From positions 1,736,001 through 1,800,000 of the forward strand of contig NC_017278.1 in the NCBI RefSeq assembly GCF_000236585.1: a stretch of DNA of 64,000 bases. Reading direction: 5' to 3'. This DNA comes from Thermus sp. CCB_US3_UF1 (lineage in GTDB: Bacteria > Deinococcota > Deinococci > Deinococcales > Thermaceae). A program made the position numbers and the translations under genes. The notes below the pieces were generated by a model. The model had not been told where the DNA came from. It saw nothing but the letters and a program-made list of their open reading frames with translations, and did no database searches. Numbering within the stretch: position 1 is the stretch's first letter; every line of letters begins with the position of its first letter. This document shows, one piece after another, positions 12,258 to 23,605 of this stretch.

Positions 12258-12414
12258 CGGGCCCTCTTCACCCTTTACGCCACCGCCACCCCCTTTGACC
12301 GGCCCTGGGAGGCCCGTTACCTCCTGGAGCCCACGGGCTTCGTCCCTTACCGCCTCTTCACCCGTTTCATGCGCCAGTTCGCCGTCTACACCCGGGAGCG
12401 GTACCGGGGAGGGA

Positions 12415-13672
12415 GGTCGTGTCAAGAGTTATGTGTAAGAGTCTGTGTACGGGGGGCATACCGCTCCTGAAGCATCTTCTCCAGCACCTCCTTCACCTCC
12501 GAGAACCCCTTTAGTTTCCGTTCTGCCCACCTCCCTTCCTGCCTCTCCGACTCCAGGTAAAGAAGCTTGTACACCGCCTCTTCCTTAGGAAACTTGTGGT
12601 CCCGCACCTTCGTCCCCCGCCGCACTTCCCGGATAAACCGCTCCATCAGGTTGGTGCTCCGCAGGTACGGCCAAAGCACCTTGGGGTACCCGTAGAACCG
12701 CAGGAAGGCCCCCGAATCCTGTACCCAAAGCCCCACCACCCCCGGGTACCGCGAACCCCAGGCGGCCTTCACCTCCTCCAAGGCCCCAAGAGCTTCTTCC
12801 CGGCTCTCCGCCCCGTACACCCGCCTCAGGTCCTCCGCCAGCAGGCCCCGGTCCCGCGCCCGCACCTGGGACAGGCTCCACCGCACCCCGTGCACCACGC
12901 ACCGCTGCCATTCCGCCTGAGGGTAGACCCTGCGGATCGCTTCAGGAAGCCCGGGCAGCCCGTCGGTGATGAAGAGCAATACCCGCCGCAGGCCCCGCTG
13001 CCAAAGCTCCCCCAGGACCCCCTCCCATCCCAGGGCGCTCTCCGTGGGCAACAGCCAAAACCCCAGGACCCGCCTCTCCCCATTAGGGGCGATGCCCAGG
13101 GCCACATACACGCTTTCCCGTACGATCCCTTCTCCTTCCCTGAAGACCTTTAGGGAAAGCCCGTCCAGGTAGACGAAGGCCATCTCCTCGGGCAAAGGCC
13201 GGGTGCGGAAGGCTCCTGCCGCCTCCAGGACCTCGTCCGTCAGGGCGCTCAGGGTCTCGTGGGAGTAGCGGTGGCCTAAGAGCAGGCTCAGTATCTCGGC
13301 CGCCTTGCGCTGACTGACCCCGGCGGCGTAAAGGGCTACCGCCACTTCCCCCACGTCCACCAGGCGGCGGACGTAGGGCTTAAGGAAAGCCGGGTAATAC
13401 CGAGATTCCCGATCCCTAGGGACCTTCAGGTCCACCTGGCCGAAGGTGGTCTCCAGCTTGCGGGGGTAGTAGCCGTTCCTGCGGCCTCCGTGCACCTGCA
13501 AGAAGGCCGTCCGGTCCAGCTCCAGAACCGTCTGCAGAACCTCGGCTACTGTCTCCCGCACCGCTTCCCTCAGCAAGATCCGCAAGGTATCCTGGTCCAC
13601 GGGGCACCTCCTCGTGCTAAGGTGTGCCCCCCTATTAAACACGGACCCTTACACATAAATCCTTACACGACC
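12415..13672 (-). mobile_element. IS256-family element, copy 2, intact
   Basis: This 1258-bp element has imperfect terminal repeats of about 35 bp (GGTCGTGTCAAGAG at the left, GGTCGTGTAAGGAT as reverse complement at the right). It is flanked by the 8-bp direct repeat GGGAGGGA (12407-12414 and 13673-13680). Removing it and one repeat restores a continuous helicase frame, which proves the insertion point. It is the reference for judging the damage in copies 1 and 3. Confidence 0.96.
12422..13600 (-). CDS. IS256-family transposase (copy 2)
   Basis: Full-length 392-residue transposase, identical in protein sequence to copy 1. The GTG start at 13600 is preferred because GAGGAG precedes it; an upstream ATG at 13642 would add 14 residues that overlap the terminal-repeat region. 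The DDE triad lies in AFVYLDGLSLK, FITDGLPGLP and STNLMERFIREV. This copy is the likely active source of transposase in the window. Confidence 0.94.
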   Translation of the reverse strand: MDQDTLRILLREAVRETVAEVLQTVLELDRTAFLQVHGGRRNGYYPRKLETTFGQVDLKVPRDRESRYYPAFLKPYVRRLVDVGEVAVALYAAGVSQRKAAEILSLLLGHRYSHETLSALTDEVLEAAGAFRTRPLPEEMAFVYLDGLSLKVFREGEGIVRESVYVALGIAPNGERRVLGFWLLPTESALGWEGVLGELWQRGLRRVLLFITDGLPGLPEAIRRVYPQAEWQRCVVHGVRWSLSQVRARDRGLLAEDLRRVYGAESREEALGALEEVKAAWGSRYPGVVGLWVQDSGAFLRFYGYPKVLWPYLRSTNLMERFIREVRRGTKVRDHKFPKEEAVYKLLYLESERQEGRWAERKLKGFSEVKEVLEKMLQERYAPRTQTLTHNS

Positions 13673-14717
13673 GGGAGGGAGGGAGTTCTACTTCGCGGGG
13701 GGGATTGAGGACCTAGCCCGCTTCCACGGGTACCTCCGGGACCGCAACCTCCTCACCAAGCGCCTCTTCCGCCCCCCAGAGGGCCTGGTGGCCTACGAGG
13801 TCCCCCTCCTGGAGGTCCCCGAGGAGGCGAAGGCCCTCCTGGCGGAGGTGCGGAGGCGGCTCAAGGCGGCGGCCTACCGGGCCCCCCAGGAGGAGCGGGG
13901 GATCGTCATGGCCCAGCGCACCCTCCTCTCCCGGGCCATCCTGGAGAGGATCAAGCTGAGGGCGGCCCTTCCCCTGGTGGCCGGCCTCCTGGAGGAGGGG
14001 TGGCACGTCCTGCTCTTCGTCCAGTACCGCTCGGACAAGACCCTGGACCTCACGAGCCCCGAGGCGGTGGAGGCCTTCCTCCAGGACGCCGAGGAGAGGG
14101 GGCTCAAGGGGGCCCTCCACCGCCACCTGGCCCCGGCCCTGAAGGGCCTCGGGCTCACCCTCCCCTCCCCCGTGGCGATGGTCCGGGAGGCCTTCGGAGG
14201 GCTGGGAGAGGACCTCGCCTTCTACACCGGGGCGGAGACGGGAAGCGCCCTCAGGAGGACCAAGGCGGCCTGGGACGAGGGGAGGGTGCGCCTCCTCCTG
14301 GCCACCGCGGGCAAGGGGGGTGTGGGCCTCTCCTTCCACGACACCACGGGGAAGAGACCTACGGCCCAGATCGTCCTCACCCTGCCCTGGACGGCCACGG
14401 GGCTGGACCAGGTCCTGGGCCGGGTGGTGCGCCTTGGAATGAAGAGCCCCGTGCGGATCCTCTTCCCTGCGGCCCCGGTGCCCTTTGAGCAGCAGCTTGC
14501 GGCCACGGTGGCCCAGAGCCTGAGGACCCTGGGGTACGCGGTGCGAGGGGGCGAGGGGGTGGTGCCGGAGCGGGTGGTGGAGGCCTTCCTCTACGACCTG
14601 GCGGCGGTGGACCTGATGGGCTTCCTCAGGCTTTTAGAGGCGGAGGAAAGCCTGTCCAAGGCCCCCCGGGAGGAGGAGGCCTCTTCCCTGGAGGTGCCGC
14701 TTCCGCCCTCGGGGTGA

Positions 14718-15090: not shown

Positions 15091-15624
15091 CTAGGAGGCT
15101 CTCCCCATGGCCTCTACCTCCTCCAGGCGCCTGGGATGGAGCGGGCCAAGGGCGAAGAGGTAGAAGGCCAGGAAGGAGGCCAGGGCCACCCGCAAGGGCA
15201 GGGTCACGCCGATCCCCCCCAGGACCCCCGAGAGGGTTCCCCCTAAGGCGCCCGCCCCGTAGATCAGGGCCCGCAGGGCGGCCAGGCTCCCCGCCAGGGC
15301 CTCCTCGGGCAGCAACCACCCCCGCACGGCCCGCAGGTGGACGCCCGTGACCCCGACGGCAAACCCATAGAGCAGGCCCCCCGCGAGGAAAGGAGGGAAC
15401 GGAAGGGCCAGGAGGAGGAGGGCCCTCACCGGGTCTCCCCGGTCCAGCCGGGGGCTCAGGAGGAGCAAAGGGCCTAGGGTGAAGTACCCGAGGGCAGCGA
15501 AGAGGCCTACCCAGAAGGCCTCCCCCGTGCGGGCCACCTCCAGGCTCAAGGCGCTGAAGCCCAGGGCGGCCCCCAGGTCGCCCAGGGCCTCGGAAAGAAA
15601 GGCCAGTTTCCAGACCGGGTTCAA
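15091..15624 (-). CDS. Half-size MFS-like membrane protein
   Basis: About 178 residues with roughly six hydrophobic segments, including LWVGLFAALGYFTLGP-like, PPFLAGGLLYGFAVGVTGV, YGAGALGGTLSGVLGGIGV and ASFLAFYLFALG. It resembles part of an MFS exporter but is half the usual 400 residues. A TTG at 15624 (LNPVWKLAFLSEALG) sits five bases after the stop of the small ORF and right behind TAGAGG, so it is the likely start, translationally coupled. It is either a degenerate transporter or a half-transporter working with the 12-TM protein encoded just upstream. Confidence 0.6.
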   Translation of the reverse strand: MNPVWKLAFLSEALGDLGAALGFSALSLEVARTGEAFWVGLFAALGYFTLGPLLLLSPRLDRGDPVRALLLLALPFPPFLAGGLLYGFAVGVTGVHLRAVRGWLLPEEALAGSLAALRALIYGAGALGGTLSGVLGGIGVTLPLRVALASFLAFYLFALGPLHPRRLEEVEAMGRAS

Positions 15625-15628
15625 GCCT

Positions 15629-15757
15629 CTAGAGCGAACCCTTCCACCATCCAGATGACCCCACCTGTAATGGAGCAGGCATGGCAAAGGGGCGCACGTA
15701 CACCCGCCGCGTCCGGCCGCCGACCCTGACCTCTTGCACCTCCTTGAGCATCGCCAT
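15629..15757 (-). CDS. Small ORF, candidate peptide precursor of the radical SAM operon
   Basis: A 42-codon frame begins MAMLKEVQEVRVGG, continues TRRVYVRPFAMPAPLQ and ends VGSSGWWKGSL. It lies in the same direction as the radical SAM and MFS genes, between the two transporters, and is preceded by the same 32-bp leader that precedes the radical SAM gene (AAGGGGGTGA as ribosome site). A second Met at codon 3 gives better spacing. The basic beta-strand-prone N-terminus would fit a leader bound by an RRE. The Gly/Ser/Trp/Lys tail would fit a core, and Trp-Lys crosslinking by radical SAM enzymes is known from streptide. The role is inferred from context; no homolog is recognised. Confidence 0.5.
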   Translation of the reverse strand: MAMLKEVQEVRVGGRTRRVYVRPFAMPAPLQVGSSGWWKGSL

Positions 15758-15758
15758 T

Positions 15759-15790
15759 CACCCCCTTACGGGTTAGCCCCAGAGTAGCAG
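15759..15790 (-). repeat. Duplicated leader, copy A (before the small ORF)
   Basis: On the minus strand this 32-bp stretch runs from CTGCTACTCTGGGGC to AAGGGGGTG. It matches the copy at 18496-18527 in 31 of 32 positions. It contains a TGCTACYCT box (extended -10-like) and a purine-rich ribosome site. Shared control of the small ORF and the radical SAM gene is inferred. Confidence 0.85.
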
Positions 15791-15824
15791 CAGGGGAATA
15801 CCGCCCGTGGAGCCCAGGAGGGCC

Positions 15825-17039
15825 TCACCCACGCCCCTCGGCGTCACCACGAGGGGAGAGAACCCTTTGGGAGAGGCGGAGGAGAGGGGGAAAGAGAAGG
15901 GAGGCCAGGAGGAAAACGCTCCCAAAGGCCACGAAGGCCCCCCTGGGCCCCAGGAGGTCCCCAAGCCCCCCGCCCAAGGGGGAGCCCAGGACCCGGGCCG
16001 TCTGGGTGAGGACGTTGACGTAGGCAAAGAGGCCCACCAGGGTCTCCGGGGGGGCAAGCCGCTGGAGGAAGGTCCGGAAGGCGATCCGGGCCACGGAAAC
16101 CCCCGCCCCCGAGACCAAAGACCCGAGGAGGAGGTGGGGGTAAGGGAGGAGGCCGTTCCCCAGGTTGCCCAGGCCCAGGAGGCCAAGCCCCCCGAGGAGG
16201 CCAAGGACCGGGGGGAGGGAGACGCGGGTAAGGGCCTGGGCCACAAGGAAGCCCCCCAGGCTAAAGCCCGCCCAGGCGATACCTAGCCCCTCGGGCCGCT
16301 TGAGGTCGTGGAAGAGAAGAGCGGTGAGGACCCCGCCCCCCGTGAGGGCCAGGGCAGGGAGAAGGGCAGGTAGAGCAACGGGGAGGAGAACACCCAAGGG
16401 TACACCCCCAAAGGCCTTCCGCCTCCCTTCGGAAGGGCCTAGGGGAGGAGGGGCCTTCAGGCCCAGGAGGAGGACCAGGGCCACCCCCAGAGGAAGGGCG
16501 AAGAGGGGAAGGGCGTAGGGCCCCAGGCGGTCCACGGCAAAGCCCCCTATGAGGGGGGCCAGGACCAGGCCCAAGGTATTGGCCATTTCCCAGCGGGCGT
16601 TGGCCTGGGACAGGGCCTCCTTAGGGAAGAGGCGGGGCAGGGCGCTTCCCAGTAAAACGCCGTAGATGGCCAGAGCAGCCGTAAGGAAGAGGAAGAGGGC
16701 GAGCAAGGCGGCGTAAAGGAGAAGAAAGGTGCTAAGGCCAGGGCTTCCCAGGGCGAGGAGGGCCGCTACCCCAAGGCCAAAGGCGAGGAGGCGGAGCACC
16801 ATTTGGGGCCTGGTCTCAAGCCAGGATTGGAGGAGAAAGGGGGTCAGGATGCTCGCTAAGGCTTGAACCAGGGTGAGGACCGAAGTTTGTAGCCCCGAGG
16901 CTCCCGCTTCCAGGAACCGCCATAGGCCCGCCACCACCAGGCCCTGGCCGGTCAGGGTTAGAAGGAAGGCGAGGAGGAAGAAGGAGAAGGTACCCGAGGG
17001 CGGAGTTAAATCCTTAGCCATGCTGGGACGCTGAGCCAT
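15825..17039 (-). CDS. MFS transporter, likely exporter of the radical SAM operon
   Basis: A 404-residue membrane protein with about 12 hydrophobic segments, for example FSFFLLAFLLTLTGQGLVVA, TFLLLYAALLALFLFLTAAL and LLGGLGLLGLGNLGNGL. The central WEMANTLGLVLAPLIGGF and DRLGPYALPLF resemble MFS drug or metabolite exporters. The start at 17039 overlaps the radical SAM gene by 26 bp; an internal ATG at 17021 overlaps its stop codon. Either way translation is coupled. The coupling suggests it exports or protects against the product of the radical SAM protein. Confidence 0.82.
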   Translation of the reverse strand: MAQRPSMAKDLTPPSGTFSFFLLAFLLTLTGQGLVVAGLWRFLEAGASGLQTSVLTLVQALASILTPFLLQSWLETRPQMVLRLLAFGLGVAALLALGSPGLSTFLLLYAALLALFLFLTAALAIYGVLLGSALPRLFPKEALSQANARWEMANTLGLVLAPLIGGFAVDRLGPYALPLFALPLGVALVLLLGLKAPPPLGPSEGRRKAFGGVPLGVLLPVALPALLPALALTGGGVLTALLFHDLKRPEGLGIAWAGFSLGGFLVAQALTRVSLPPVLGLLGGLGLLGLGNLGNGLLPYPHLLLGSLVSGAGVSVARIAFRTFLQRLAPPETLVGLFAYVNVLTQTARVLGSPLGGGLGDLLGPRGAFVAFGSVFLLASLLFPPLLRLSQRVLSPRGDAEGRG

Positions 17040-18489
17040 CAGCTAGAGGGATTTCGCTGGTGTAATTGGGGATAGTCCGAATGTCCACGGCATCAAAGAA
17101 GTTCGGTTGAACAGGTATTTTCCGTAGCTCTTGCAGTAGAGGCGAATTCTCCCAAATGTCGGCTAAAGTGCTCGTTAGAAGGTTGCCGAAGAACGAATAC
17201 CTGGGCCGCCACTCACGCAATTTGGCAGAAACGTAGACATTACCCCTCGGATCTACGCGAAGAGCACGATTACCCCTAGAGGTAAGCCATATCTGATCGC
17301 GGGCCGGGTTTTCCGATCTAAGTTCTCTAGAAAGCTTATACCACAGCCTTTGGTGGGGCTTAATCGCACCTAATCTAACCATGTCCATGTATTCCCCTAC
17401 AGCGAAGTCCCACTCTTCCTGGCTAAGAACGAGATGATTCAAGCTTGCCCCGCGCCCTGCGGGATACATGGGCGCAATCCCATACATAGCGTTGTTTTGT
17501 GTTGCGATTTCACCTATCTTTCTAATCTCAGTGTAGTTCTTCTTGTGAACTACCGTGAAGACAGCCAGAGGGATACCGGCTTTGGCAATGAGACTTATCT
17601 GCCGCAAGGTAGTCTTAAATCCCCCCTTACCCCGAAGCAAATCGTGGCTATCCGGACTAGATCCGTCTAAAGTGGTACCCACGAAGTTCAGATTTTTTGT
17701 GGACGCAATCTTATCTAAGTCGCTATCTCGCAACACGGACAAGTCGGTGTTAACTTGAACGCTAAACCCTAGCTCGTCCGCTAGGCGGATGATCTCCAAT
17801 CCATCTGGCCTACTCAGTGGATCACCTCCTGTGAATTCAAGGTAGAAGACCCCTTCCTTTCTTATGGAATCCAAGATATATCCCCACTCATCGAAAGTCA
17901 GCTCTTCCCGAAGAGGTATTTTGGGTTCAGGGCCGGATTCGTATGCACAGTATGCACAACGCCTATAGCACCTATTCGTGAGCTCGATTTCCATGGATAG
18001 AGGCCTATAGTACCGGTCATCGGAGAAGTGTTGATCGTCTAGGAACAAAGCTTTAGATTCCAGCCCTTCTTGAGAAGGGCGAAGGTATCCCTCGGCAATC
18101 AAGTAAAGGATTAAATGCCCCGCTGCCTCTACAAATCCCTTGGTAATTTCACTTAAGCCTCCTTCTTTGAGAACTTGCTTGAGGGCCAGCGATGGCCTAG
18201 TAGCAACTACAAAGGATCTAACAAGGTCGAAGGCTTCCTGATTGAGAAAAATGCCCCTCTTAAAGCCGTAGAGTATTCCCCCGAACCGCTCTCTGCGTAG
18301 GACAACGCTAGCGTCGCTGGCAAGGACAAGGGGCACGTCTTCGACCCAAAGCCTTTCGTATTCCGAGCCTAATCCTTCTTCGAGGTCCTCCTCGTAAGCC
18401 AATATAAAATTGCCTGTATCAATGGCAACCATCAGGAAATCATGCTGCTGGCCTACGACCTTTGGAAGTTGTAAACCCCTCTCGTGCAT
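17014..18489 (-). CDS. Radical SAM protein with PqqD/RRE-like N-terminus and cysteine-less SPASM-like C-terminus
   Basis: A 491-residue protein from ATG 18489 (GTG 18498 is possible). Residues 65-140 (FGGILYGFKRGIFLNQEAFD to YLIAEGYLRP) resemble PqqD-type RiPP recognition elements. The radical SAM core starts at MEIELTNRCYRRCAYCAY, which supplies the CxxxCxxC cluster, followed by FTGGDPLSRPDG and TTLDGSSPDSHD. The C-terminus (RALRVDPRGNVYVSA, FGNLLTSTLADIWEN) has the SPASM layout, but every SPASM cysteine is replaced; no Cys occurs after the core motif. The gene is visibly AT-richer than its neighbours with many A/T-ending codons, pointing to transfer. It probably modifies a ribosomal peptide. 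Confidence 0.87.
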   Translation of the reverse strand: MHERGLQLPKVVGQQHDFLMVAIDTGNFILAYEEDLEEGLGSEYERLWVEDVPLVLASDASVVLRRERFGGILYGFKRGIFLNQEAFDLVRSFVVATRPSLALKQVLKEGGLSEITKGFVEAAGHLILYLIAEGYLRPSQEGLESKALFLDDQHFSDDRYYRPLSMEIELTNRCYRRCAYCAYESGPEPKIPLREELTFDEWGYILDSIRKEGVFYLEFTGGDPLSRPDGLEIIRLADELGFSVQVNTDLSVLRDSDLDKIASTKNLNFVGTTLDGSSPDSHDLLRGKGGFKTTLRQISLIAKAGIPLAVFTVVHKKNYTEIRKIGEIATQNNAMYGIAPMYPAGRGASLNHLVLSQEEWDFAVGEYMDMVRLGAIKPHQRLWYKLSRELRSENPARDQIWLTSRGNRALRVDPRGNVYVSAKLREWRPRYSFFGNLLTSTLADIWENSPLLQELRKIPVQPNFFDAVDIRTIPNYTSEIPLADGSASQHG

Positions 18490-18495
18490 TTCTTC

Positions 18496-18527
18496 CACCC
18501 CCTTACGGGTTAGCCCCAGGGTAGCAG
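18496..18527 (-). repeat. Duplicated leader, copy B (before the radical SAM gene)
   Basis: On the minus strand it reads from CTGCTACCCTGGGGC to AAGGGGGTG, with one difference from copy A at 15759-15790. TACCCT (18518-18523) with a preceding TG could serve as an extended -10 box. AAGGGGGTG is the ribosome site for ATG 18489. Confidence 0.85.
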
Positions 18528-18533
18528 GGGGGA

Positions 18534-18615
18534 GGTTACGTCCAGGTTACGTGGAAGCTCTTCCCAACGATGGCCCCTGCGTAACCTCGCGTAACCTTGG
18601 ACTCCCCGCGTAACC
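18534..18615 (-). promoter_or_regulatory. Array of five CGTAACC heptamers, SARP-like operator
   Basis: Heptamer GGTTACG/CGTAACC occurs at 18534-18540, 18545-18551, 18580-18586, 18590-18596 and 18609-18615; the first two point one way on the plus strand and the last three the other. Start-to-start steps within the groups are 11, 10 and 19 bp, about one or two helical turns. The proximal heptamer ends 10 bp before a TACCCT box (18518-18523). SARP regulators are known to bind heptamer direct repeats of about 11-bp period just upstream of the -10. The neighbouring gene encodes a winged-helix/BTAD protein, so it is the natural candidate to bind here. Confidence 0.75.
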
Positions 18616-18637
18616 TCCCCCTTGGCACCCTGGAAGC

Positions 18638-18829
18638 ATGAGGCACAGGTGGCCTTGGGTTCTCCTCGTGGGATGGCTTCTCCTGGCCCTTCTAAGAGGC
18701 CCTGGTCCCGCCCCTTCCCTGGCCTGCTGGAGTCCCGACTGCTTCCCTCCCGGTTCACACCCCGTACTCCCGGCGAAGCCGCTCCACCCGGGCCCGGGCG
18801 ATGGGGTAGCGGGGATCCTCGGGGGATAG
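18638..18829 (+). CDS. Possible small membrane or exported peptide, divergent from the radical SAM gene
   Basis: A 63-codon frame starts MRHRWPWVLLVGWLLLALL, a basic end plus one hydrophobic helix, and continues through SLACWSPDCFPPGSHP. GGAAG precedes the ATG. It begins just after the last CGTAACC heptamer, so the array could serve a divergent promoter. Its last 75 bases overlap the 3' end of the BTAD regulator on the other strand, and no clear -10 box is visible. It could be a small secreted or membrane product, a second peptide substrate (two Cys), or an accident of GC-rich DNA. Confidence 0.3.
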   Translation: MRHRWPWVLLVGWLLLALLRGPGPAPSLACWSPDCFPPGSHPVLPAKPLHPGPGDGVAGILGG

Positions 18830-20239
18830 CCCCTCCAGGAGGGCCTCCCAAACCTCCAGGTCCTCCCCCAAGCGCTCTGCGAGGAGGAAGAGGGCCTCCT
18901 GGTCCCCCGAGGCCAGCACCGCCCGGCGCAGGGTCTCCTCCAGTTCTAGGCGGAGCGCCTCCACCCCCGGGGCCTGGCTCCAGGGGAGGAGGGGGCCCTG
19001 GTAAAGGGCAAGGGCCTGTTCCAGGTCTCTCCCGGAAAGGGCCCTGAGAAAGGCCAAAAGGTCCGAGGGAGGAGGGTCTTCCAGACGGTAGGGGGCGCAG
19101 GAGATCCGGAAGCCCTTGGCCCGCAGGCGGTGGAGGAGGGTCTTCAAGGCCCCTAGGTTGGGTTCCCCGTAGAGGGCCTCCGCCAGGGCTTCTCCCGATA
19201 TGCCCTTCTCGTGGGCAAGGAGGAGGGCCAGCGCCTCCGTGCCCCTAGGCCCTAAGGAGGGTAGGGGACCTCCGTCAAGGAGGCGGAGGGAGGTCTCCTC
19301 CCCTCGGCCCAGCAGGAAGGCCCGGGCCTCGGGGCGGAGGGCGGGGGCCAGGCGGGGGGCCAGTGGGGCCTCTACCTCCGCCCCCAGGGCCCTGAGGCGG
19401 GCCTCGGCCAGGAGGGCGTAGAGGGCCCCGTCCTCCCGGAGGAGGCCGTGGGCGGAGAGGAGGAGATCCCTGGCCGCCTCCCCCCCTTCCAGGAGCCCCT
19501 GGGCCAGGAGGAGGAAGCCCTGGGACCACCCCGCCTGGGGGCCGGCCTGGGCCGCTTCCAGGAGGAGCCGGGCCCTAAGGGGTTCCAGGGCCAAGGCCCC
19601 AAGGACCAGGAAGCTCGGGAGGCTGCCCGGGCCCAGGAGGGGAAGGAGGCCCTGGAGGAGGGTCCGGGCCCGCCGGGGCTGGCCCCGGAGGAGGTGGGCC
19701 AGGGCCAGGGTGTGCCCGGCCAGGAGGCGCACCCCGGGCAGCTCGTGGAGCAGGAACTCCTCCCCCTCTTCCAGGACCTCGGGGAGGGGAAGGGCGCCGA
19801 AGAAGAGCTCCAGGCGGAGGTGGTGGAGCCGGGTCCAGGGGGAAGGGGCCTTGAGGCGGGCCAAGGCGGCATGGGCCAGGGCCTCGGGACGGCCCAGGCG
19901 CTCCAGGACCACCGCCAGGGCCAGGTGGAGCCGGGCCTCCGCCTGGGAGTTCCCCCGGAAGCGGTGGAGGGCCTCCTCCAGGGCCACCGCCCCTTCCCTC
20001 GGGGGCAGGGCGAGGCCCAGGTGGTAGAGGGTGAGGGGGGTCTGGGCCCTCCGGGCGGCCTCCAGGGCCAGGGCCCGGTACCCTCCCCAGTCCCCCTTGC
20101 GGCCCTCCAGGAAGCCCAGGAGGGCCAGGCGCTCCGCCTCGGGGAGGCCTTCTTGGGGGGTTTGGAGGAGGGCCAGGGCCTCCCGGTCCTTTCCCCCCTC
20201 CAGGAGGCGGAGGGCGATGGGGAGGCGGGATGGGTCCAT
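18755..20239 (-). CDS. TPR / winged-helix / BTAD transcriptional regulator (SARP-like)
   Basis: A 494-residue protein. Residues 1-300 are helical Leu/Ala-rich repeats of TPR type (LALLGFLEGRKGDWGGYRAL, LYHLGLALPPREGAVALEEA). Residues 320-390 form an OmpR/SARP-like winged helix (LGPRGTEALALLLAHEKGIS, EALYGEPNLGALKTLLHRLR). Residues 395-494 are a bacterial transcriptional activator domain (FLRALSGRDLEQALALYQGP, EALRLELEETLRRAVL). BTAD proteins of the SARP type activate secondary-metabolite operons. It lies just upstream of the heptamer array and the radical SAM operon in the same direction, so it is the likely activator. The TPR part may sense a partner or peptide. Confidence 0.82.
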   Translation of the reverse strand: MDPSRLPIALRLLEGGKDREALALLQTPQEGLPEAERLALLGFLEGRKGDWGGYRALALEAARRAQTPLTLYHLGLALPPREGAVALEEALHRFRGNSQAEARLHLALAVVLERLGRPEALAHAALARLKAPSPWTRLHHLRLELFFGALPLPEVLEEGEEFLLHELPGVRLLAGHTLALAHLLRGQPRRARTLLQGLLPLLGPGSLPSFLVLGALALEPLRARLLLEAAQAGPQAGWSQGFLLLAQGLLEGGEAARDLLLSAHGLLREDGALYALLAEARLRALGAEVEAPLAPRLAPALRPEARAFLLGRGEETSLRLLDGGPLPSLGPRGTEALALLLAHEKGISGEALAEALYGEPNLGALKTLLHRLRAKGFRISCAPYRLEDPPPSDLLAFLRALSGRDLEQALALYQGPLLPWSQAPGVEALRLELEETLRRAVLASGDQEALFLLAERLGEDLEVWEALLEGLSPEDPRYPIARARVERLRREYGV

Positions 20240-20336: not shown

Positions 20337-20576
20337 CTATTCGTCAAAGCCCAGGGCCCGGAGGTAGCGCTTCACCAGGTAGTAGGGCTTGCGGGCCAGG
20401 TAGTCCTTGCCCTGCTCCACCCGCAAGACCCAGTGGGGCCGGAGGCCCAGCATCCGGGCGAACCGGGTGGCGGAGACTCCCAGGGTCTCCCGCCTGCGCT
20501 TGAGCTCGGCGATGAACTCCTCATCAAAGAGGAGTTCCTCCGTGATCTTGACCTTGCCCTCGAACTTTCCTCCCAT
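20337..20576 (-). CDS. Small helix-turn-helix (XRE-like) protein
   Basis: A 79-residue protein from ATG 20576 with a helix-turn-helix of XRE type, RRETLGVSATRFARMLGLRP then HWVLRVEQGKDYL. Such one-domain proteins act as antitoxin-like or regulatory DNA binders. No toxin gene is adjacent. The 3' end of the tnpB frame overlaps its first 53 bases, showing that the tnpB element landed immediately upstream and may have separated the gene from its original promoter or partner. Confidence 0.7.
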   Translation of the reverse strand: MGGKFEGKVKITEELLFDEEFIAELKRRRETLGVSATRFARMLGLRPHWVLRVEQGKDYLARKPYYLVKRYLRALGFDE

Positions 20577-21792: not shown

Positions 21793-21845
21793 CGTCTACC
21801 TGATGCTTGCGCTGCTCCTGGATGTAGCGCTCGATCACCTGGCGC
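21785..21845 (-). pseudogene. IS200-type TnpA stub
   Basis: The last 19 codons of a frame overlapping the tnpB start read RQVIERYIQEQRKHQVDDA and stop at TAA 21785-21787. This matches the C-terminal helix of Y1 (IS200/IS605) transposases, which sit upstream of tnpB. Everything before is replaced by IS256 copy 3, which begins at 21846. Confidence 0.6.
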
Positions 21846-22996
21846 GGTCGTGTAAGGATTTATGTGTAAGGGTCCGTGTTTAATAGGGGGGCACACCTTA
21901 GCACGAGGAGGTGCCCCGTGGACCAGGATACCTTGCGGATCTTGCTGAGGGAAGCGGTGCGGGAGACAGTAGCCGAGGTTCTGCAGACGGTTCTGGAGCT
22001 GGACCGGACGGCCTTCTTGCAGGTGCACGGAGGCCGCAGGAACGGCTACTACCCCCGCAAGCTGGAGACCACCTTCGGCCAGGTGGACCTGAAGGTCCCT
22101 AGGGATCGGGAATCTCGGTATTACCCGGCTTTCCTTAAGCCCTACGTCCGCCGCCTGGTGGACGTGGGGGAAGTGGCGGTAGCCCTTTACGCCGCCGGGG
22201 TCAGTCAGCGCAAGGCGGCCGAGATACTGAGCCTGCTCTTAGGCCACCGCTACTCCCACGAGACCCTGAGCGCCCTGACGGACGAGGTCCTGGAGGCGGC
22301 AGGAGCCTTCCGCACCCGGCCTTTGCCCGAGGAGATGGCCTTCGTCTACCTGGACGGGCTTTCCCTAAAGGTCTTCAGGGAAGGAGAAGGGATCGTACGG
22401 GAAAGCGTGTATGTGGCCCTGGGCATCGCCCCTAATGGGGAGAGGCGGGTCCTGGGGTTTTGGCTGTTGCCCACGGAGAGCGCCCTGGGATGGGAGGGGG
22501 TCCTGGGGGAGCTTTGGCAGCGGGGCCTGCGGCGGGTATTGCTCTTCATCACCGACGGGCTGCCCGGGCTTCCTGAAGCGATCCGCAGGGTCTACCCTCA
22601 GGCGGAATGGCAGCGGTGCGTGGTGCACGGGGTGCGGTGGAGCCTGTCCCAGGTGCGGGCGCGGGACCGGGGCCTGCTGGCGGAGGACCTGAGGCGGGTG
22701 TACGGGGCGGAGAGCCGGGAAGAAGCTCTTGGGGCCTTGGAGGAGGTGAAGGCCGCCTGGGGTTCGCGGTACCCGGGGGTGGTGGGGCTTTGGGTACAGG
22801 ATTCGGGGGCCTTCCTGCGGTTCTACGGGTACCCCAAGGTGCTTTGGCCGTACCTGCGGAGCACCAACCTGATGGAGCGGTTTATCCGGGAAGTGCGGCG
22901 GGGGACGAAGGTGCGGGACCACAAGTTTCCTAAGGAAGAGGCGGTGTACAAGCTTCTTTACCTGGAGTCGGAGAGGCAGGAAGGGAGGTGGGCAGA
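21846..22996 (+). mobile_element. IS256-family element, copy 3, truncated
   Basis: It begins with GGTCGTGTAAGGATTTATG, the transposase-start-side terminal repeat, and is identical to copy 2 until GGGCAGA at 22996. The last 107 bp, including the other terminal repeat, are missing. At the left it cuts tnpA, and at the right it joins a tyrosine recombinase gene that lacks its N-terminus. With one end lost, it cannot transpose by itself. Confidence 0.93.
21918..22996 (+). pseudogene. IS256-family transposase, 3'-truncated (copy 3)
   Basis: From GTG 21918 the frame is identical to the other copies through ERQEGRWAER, then enters recombinase DNA in a wrong frame. About 32 C-terminal residues are replaced. 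The catalytic DDE residues are all upstream of the break, so a protein could be made, but the loss of the C-terminal helix and of one IS end suggests it is inactive. Confidence 0.85.
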
Positions 22997-23605
22997 GAGG
23001 AGGAACTGGCTAAGATCCTGGAAGCCGCCCGGCAACACCGCCTCTTCCCCCTCTTCTACCTCGCCGCCGCCTTCGGCCTCCGAAGAGGCGAGGTCCTCGG
23101 CCTCACCTGGCCCGACATAGACCTGGAAAAGGGCGAGCTCCACATACGCCGCGCCCTCGTCAAAGACCTCGCGTCTAACAAGCCCATCCTGACGGGTACC
23201 AAAACCCCCACCTCCAACCGCACCATCCCCCTCACCGAAGAAGCCATCGCCATCCTGGAAGAACACCGCCAGCGCCTCATAGACGACGGCCTCTACCAAC
23301 CCAACGGCCTCGTCTTCCCTTCCCTCTCCGGTACCCCCATCCGCCCGGAAAACCTCAAACGGGCCTGGAAATCCATCCTCAACAAGGCCGGGGTGAAGTA
23401 CGCCCGCCTCCACGACCTCCGGGGGACCTTCCTCACCCGGGTCATCCGCCAAACCGGGAACCCCAAACTCGCCGCCGCCCTAGCAGGCCACAAAACCCTC
23501 TCCACCACCCTCAAGCACTACACCCACATCTCCCAAGAAGAACTCAAATCCACCCTCCGCTCCCTTCAGGTCTTGCCAAAGGATAAGGACCCCGAAGACA
23601 ATTGA
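22997..23605 (+). pseudogene. Tyrosine recombinase/integrase, N-terminus missing
   Basis: About 200 residues of the catalytic domain are present: Arg in AAAFGLRRGEVLGLTW, the His-x-x-Arg pair in ARLHDLRGTFLTRV, His in AALAGHKTLSTT and the nucleophile Tyr in LKHYTHISQEEL. The N-terminal core-binding domain is gone at the IS256 junction. A GTG within the IS (22988) could start a truncated protein. Phage and island integrases often lie next to their tRNA target, and this one ends 70 bp from tRNA-Val. It probably brought in part of the accessory region to its left. Confidence 0.88.

Follow-up and report, generated by a model that had tools for sequence, protein, structure and literature searches.

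A probable exchangeable-payload site in Thermus carrying a recently acquired radical SAM-MFS cassette

A stretch of 64,000 nucleotides from Thermus sp. CCB_US3_UF1 (contig NC_017278.1, positions 1,736,001 to 1,800,000; hereafter the window) probably contains a regulated site with an exchangeable payload. Its current payload would be a recently acquired gene pair for a radical SAM protein (rSAM1) and an MFS transporter (MFS1), with the remnants of a resident beta-propeller and MFS operon behind it. Such a modular site is indicated by the gene remnants, the nearly identical cassette copies, the repeats and breakpoints, and the varied payloads. We infer that a SARP-like regulator binds a heptamer array and switches on a promoter in the adjoining leader, and whatever follows the leader would then be the payload. 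The rSAM1-MFS1 cassette would have arrived recently by horizontal transfer and recombined in via the repeated leader and the propeller 5' end. It would thus have been placed ahead of the resident operon, whose remains would be a 42-aa ORF and an apparent half-size MFS gene. The features are given below in window coordinates.

18755-20239, minus strand: regulator gene, SARP-like, 494 aa, with intact homologues in most Thermus
18534-18615: heptamer array, putative operator, five copies of GGTTACG (18534 and 18545 on the plus strand; 18580, 18590 and 18609 on the minus strand)
18496-18532, minus strand: leader 1, with a putative extended -10 (TGCTACCCT), short 5'UTR, AAGGGGG ribosome site and start codon region
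17014-18489, minus strand: rSAM1, radical SAM protein, 491 aa, with a SPASM-like C-terminus without cluster cysteines
15825-17039, minus strand: MFS1, MFS transporter, 404 aa, overlapping rSAM1
15759-15795, minus strand: leader 2, a second leader copy without heptamer array (direct repeat D5, 92%)
15629-15757, minus strand: 42-aa ORF, 25 codons of the propeller 5' end followed by the propeller 3' end out of frame
15621-15680, minus strand: propeller 3' remnant, encoding ACSITGGVIWMVEGFALEA-stop, in a frame different from that of the 42-aa ORF
15091-15687, minus strand: MFS2 remnant, 198 aa, with ~70 N-terminal and ~110 C-terminal codons, ~200 internal codons being gone at a ~14-bp repeat

The co-directional gene order described in the first-pass annotation was borne out by the coordinates, the regulator, rSAM1, MFS1, the 42-aa ORF and the 198-aa ORF all being on the minus strand, and so was the placement of regulator and repeat array immediately ahead of a radical SAM and exporter operon. 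Pfam supported the identities of both operon genes (Radical_SAM, E=1.9e-21; MFS_1, E=7e-19). The start of rSAM1 is an ATG in RefSeq, and a GTG at 18498 is also open. Nothing on the present locus was found in the literature searched on RiPPs, SARPs and radical SAM peptide maturases of Thermus, in agreement with the earlier statement that no Thermus system of such layout had been described. Upstream of the regulator, positions 20337-20576 of the minus strand encode a 79-aa helix-turn-helix protein (HTH_31) with a good ribosome site, possibly antitoxin-like.

It had been proposed that the 42-aa ORF is a RiPP precursor, with an RRE of the radical SAM protein binding it and the MFS protein acting as its exporter. 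The gene order, a good ribosome site and a WWK motif close to the C-terminus of the ORF agree with this proposal, whereas its sequence does not. The first ~26 residues recur at about 25 sites in 27 Thermus genomes, many of which open much longer reading frames. These frames encode a ~320-aa protein, intact in other Thermus, whose structural model is a beta-propeller (pLDDT 82; Foldseek E 4e-12) closest to SMP-30/lactonase, DFPase and Vgb. The 5' 73 nt of the ORF are a nearly exact match to the propeller gene of genome G015. The last ~19 codons of the propeller gene follow just behind in a different frame and read ACSITGGVIWMVEGFALEA-stop, and the intact propeller of genome G002 closes with ACSISGGVVWVIEGFSSLEA-stop; the remnant aligns to the intact propeller with a score of 76, the best of 2000 shuffles being 41. 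Since the propeller 5' codons are in the 42-aa ORF and its 3' end is in another frame, ~280 codons have been lost and the frame has changed. Residues 26-42, including the WWK motif, are evidently an out-of-frame read, and the ORF is, by this alignment, the scar of a deleted beta-propeller gene and not a precursor. The small ORF is also not conserved beside homologous radical SAM genes: behind this same rSAM1, T. scotoductus, T. parvatiensis and T. sp. 2.9 have a longer propeller frame in its place. None of the other small ORFs with a good ribosome site at the locus suits as a precursor, so that a precursor gene adjoining its modifying enzyme, as at RiPP loci, was not found at the window locus.

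The 'half-size MFS' is likewise a remnant. It is an internal-deletion form of a 397-aa MFS (MFS2) that is intact in G015; it was aligned to the intact copy L094:14496-15689, and the deletion junction carries the ~14-bp repeat GGGCC[C]TCCTCCTCC. As for the propeller genes, the first ~95 residues are nearly identical in most of them, with strong divergence thereafter (L089:7829-8779, L095:11805-12788 on the minus strand, L094:6705-7580). Several partly deleted copies occur per genome, and the family may be mosaic or diversifying.

The RRE-like N-terminus that had been ascribed to rSAM1 found no support in three profile tests. A Pfam search for PqqD over the whole genome gave no match in rSAM1, hhalign of rSAM1 against 17 PqqD domains gave a probability of 0.2%, and 604 of 1000 shuffled sequences scored as high as rSAM1 against an HMM of PqqD domains. 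The AlphaFold model (mean pLDDT 49.6) is uninformative on this point, the N-terminus being below 50 and the model of residues 1-165 unreliable. A highly diverged RRE in this region is possible but unsupported. With the small ORF being a propeller fragment and the RRE of RiPP loci not found in rSAM1, we regard the precursor proposal as highly improbable.

As an enzyme, rSAM1 has the CxxxCxxC motif of the radical SAM superfamily, and its only three cysteines (174, 178 and 181) all lie within it. A SPASM-like scaffold can be aligned (GNVYVSA..., GNLLTSTLADIWENSP), but no cysteine follows residue 181, unlike in relatives, which leaves none for the auxiliary clusters of a SPASM domain, and the Pfam SPASM score (20.4) is below the cut-off of 21.5. 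BlsE was considered as a one-cluster analogue and dropped, since a second cluster motif has been proposed for it (PMC3715490). Among 111 genomes of the phylum, none was found to hold a diverged homologue that covers the N-terminus, with one match of 36% over 60 residues (E 0.004) observed; plasmids, phages and viral contigs yielded none either. A phage or viral origin was rejected, as viral contigs hold no relative and phages share the core only. Wherever it is known, rSAM1 is a single nearly invariant sequence, leaving no variation to gauge selection.

No substrate of rSAM1 was found at the locus. One explanation is a split RiPP pathway, in which the peptide modified by rSAM1 has its gene at another place in the genome. 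Among solved structures the closest by sequence is that of the sactisynthase SkfB (E 2e-18), and the best NCBIfam scores are those of the peptide maturases WgkB and mycofactocin, both of which are in line with this idea. However, the SkfB match is limited to the common core (residues 140-334), every auxiliary-cluster cysteine is missing, and the candidate MRW-type precursors described below are absent from the window genome by DNA pattern. We hold this pathway to be a tentative possibility. Most likely, rSAM1 would catalyse a one-cluster radical SAM reaction on a substrate not encoded in the operon, which could be a small molecule or a peptide from an unlinked gene, and the role of MFS1 would be to export the product or to give resistance to it.

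The distribution of the gene pair reveals its mobility. About 2.8 kb of DNA covering rSAM1 and MFS1 is 100% identical in T. igniterrae, T. scotoductus, T. sp. 2.9 and two T. thermophilus plasmids. In T. parvatiensis and a Meiothermus luteus contig, those parts of the pair that are covered are also 100% identical, and G028, which belongs to another genus, has 2 mismatches in 3020 bp; contamination is possible in the two draft assemblies outside Thermus, though each has its own IS junction. MFS1 is 99-100% identical wherever rSAM1 occurs. The adjoining regulator DNA is only 82-83% identical in T. scotoductus, T. sp. 2.9 and T. parvatiensis, and the GC content is 0.49 in rSAM1 versus 0.74 in the regulator. 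Judged from this near-identity, rSAM1-MFS1 is a recently spread, horizontally moved cassette.

In T. scotoductus and T. parvatiensis, identity to the window starts at 18540, at the leader element; T. scotoductus has its own version of the upstream leader, and the 100% identical rSAM1 comes directly after it. The right end of identity is at 15695-15702, within the propeller 5' end. T. sp. 2.9 and G006 have their left breakpoint inside the 3' portion of the regulator gene, somewhere from about 18900 to 19246. Leaders 1 and 2, as 37-bp direct repeats, bracket the cassette. Such a breakpoint pattern is as left by homologous recombination through common flanks, and cassette exchange by recombination appears to be the mechanism. 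In the plasmid pTthSNM7-6b and in JCM17653 (L187, L026), the array and promoter upstream of rSAM1 have been swapped for identical foreign sequence of at least 54 bp. Inverted copies of an IS256-type element lie at 12407-13682 and 21845-23101 of the window, with 100% identity between 12517-13673 and 21845-23001. A composite IS256 transposon was rejected, as in T. igniterrae the same locus adjoins that neighbour gene with no left IS copy in between, which means that this IS arrived later. In T. igniterrae (L021) the flanks of the left IS meet with an overlap of ~10 bp, which in the window is probably a target-site duplication.

At least four rSAM1 copies are broken, by IS insertions in T. parvatiensis, G005 and M. 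luteus and by a frameshift plus deletion in G015 (L012:1484-1785; a 1-nt frameshift and a 1,180-bp internal deletion). An apparent disruption in G006 was discarded, as it holds an N and is probably an assembly gap. MFS1 was not seen broken in any of these four, and is full length in G015. Loss of rSAM1 with retention of MFS1 is suggestive of costly production with retained immunity, in a small number of cases. These data also bear on the view that rSAM1-MFS1 is selfish or decaying cargo borne by plasmids and IS elements, without host function. Its near-identity across genera, the plasmid copies, the nearby IS elements and the four broken rSAM1 copies, together with three displaced upstream regions, fit that view. 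On the other hand, the operator array, the leader and both ORFs are intact in several genomes, and G015 has kept MFS1 despite the rSAM1 deletion, as expected if export or immunity were selected. We consider selfish cargo rather unlikely and prefer a regulated payload.

The regulator had been annotated as a TPR/winged-helix/BTAD protein. The gene is real, with intact homologues 45-100% identical in most Thermus, but neither TPR nor BTAD could be detected by Pfam in the window protein, which gave no domain match; among 12 relatives none matched below E 0.01. TPR was significant only in one longer homologue, and the C-terminal part of the regulator is conserved in long TPR proteins. The heptamer array was upheld: five GGTTACG copies are present where a shuffled stretch of 350 bp would be expected to hold 0.17 sites of the GTTACG type, and the position behind the regulator is kept in most relatives. 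Moreover, the heptamer tracks the regulator type, being GTTACG in the window group, GTAACG at ~20-bp steps in G010 and GTGACG in G004, as would be expected of an operator that this regulator recognises. Placed at the putative promoter of the adjoining operon, these heptamers match the repeat pattern of SARP family regulators. The regulator would bind its own GGTTACG array and activate the leader promoter, for which the extended -10-like element is the candidate. The leader element is present in 18 of 27 Thermus genomes, against 0 in the control.

Different payloads were observed behind the same regulator. The order is regulator-leader-propeller-MFS in L092 and L095, and regulator-leader-rSAM1-MFS1-propeller in L098, L087 and L099; in G002 the leader is directly followed by the propeller. 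A second radical SAM gene (rSAM2) occurs in L257, in the order regulator-array-rSAM2-peptide-ABC permease-ABC ATPase, the regulator being 91% identical to that of the window, and the T. thermophilus plasmid L286 holds the regulator and rSAM2-peptide, interrupted by IS elements. L091 has a Cys-rich lipoprotein fragment and ABC genes behind regulator and leader. Against TIGR04463 (rSAM_vs_C_rich, a RiPP maturase family), rSAM2 scored 362-394 bits over its full length, the best score (394.5) being below the cut-off of 525. Directly behind rSAM2, after an almost identical ribosome site, are ORFs of 29-34 aa (MRWVVKPGLRIAPSGDCGYNCGQNSGCGINTKLW, MRWVVKPGLRIGPNGGCDVNCGSNSGCVQNQKLW, MRWIVRPSRVQPLGDPGCGGRRPCPTKNPPVLT and others). 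Cys-containing ORFs of this MRW[IV]V[KR]P... type (L257:9185-9285 on the minus strand, L262:3803, L094:3022, L093:13091, L295:1520 and L286:2367 on the minus strand) come after TIGR04463-like radical SAM genes or after the Cys-rich lipoprotein gene and are themselves followed by ABC exporters, and none of the four peptides scanned had an NCBIfam match. They are likely Thermus RiPP precursors, and RiPP chemistry is likely for the rSAM2 and MRW peptide payload. In the window genome, neither rSAM2 (by search) nor an MRW-type precursor was found. The notion of a regulator-fronted RiPP locus looks right for other Thermus genomes, where both the radical SAM gene and the small ORF are different ones, and is not supported for the window's own small ORF and proposed RRE.

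The Cys-rich lipoprotein-like protein bears the 25-residue N-terminus of the propeller fused in frame (L093:12058-13026, L102, L295), and in L295 the DNA downstream of its gene still encodes the C-terminal tail of rSAM2 (AEPAPRPCTG). The two together point to payload replacement by recombination.

More broadly, Thermus may have a modular payload locus with constant regulator, array and leader. Its cassettes (RiPP maturase, Cys peptide and ABC exporter; radical SAM and MFS; beta-propeller and MFS) would be exchanged among species and plasmids by leader recombination, the probable benefit being resistance or an advantage in chemical competition in the hot-spring habitat; we see this general model as evenly balanced between right and wrong. 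Our analysis corrects a tempting RiPP call and illustrates how the scar of a deleted gene may pass for a precursor. A Thermus peptide family that is likely real and apparently undescribed is also brought to light, having an MRW[IV]V[KR]P leader and a Cys core that varies, and standing under the same regulators. The locus further points to a site of natural-product-like cassette swapping in a genetically tractable, naturally competent genus.

Several known systems resemble parts of this locus. SkfB, PqqE, the mycofactocin maturase and WgkB share with rSAM1 the CxxxCxxC core and a SPASM-like C-terminal scaffold, whereas rSAM1 lacks auxiliary Fe-S cysteines, a detectable PqqD/RRE and an adjacent precursor. 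Thermus rSAM2 is a relative of the TIGR04463 maturases, set behind the same regulator family and ahead of a 29-34-aa ORF that contains Cys and of an ABC exporter, although its score is under the curated value and its gene is absent from the window genome. The gene behind the 42-aa scar has the fold of SMP-30/lactonase/Vgb-like propellers, but the Thermus protein has no apparent signal peptide and is linked to MFS exporters. Finally, in actinomycete SARP/BTAD clusters a repeat array lies just upstream of the -10 before a biosynthesis and export operon, and the Thermus locus, with its candidate -10, is arranged likewise; the Thermus regulator family differs in having no Pfam-detectable BTAD, and the gene set behind its array changes from genome to genome.
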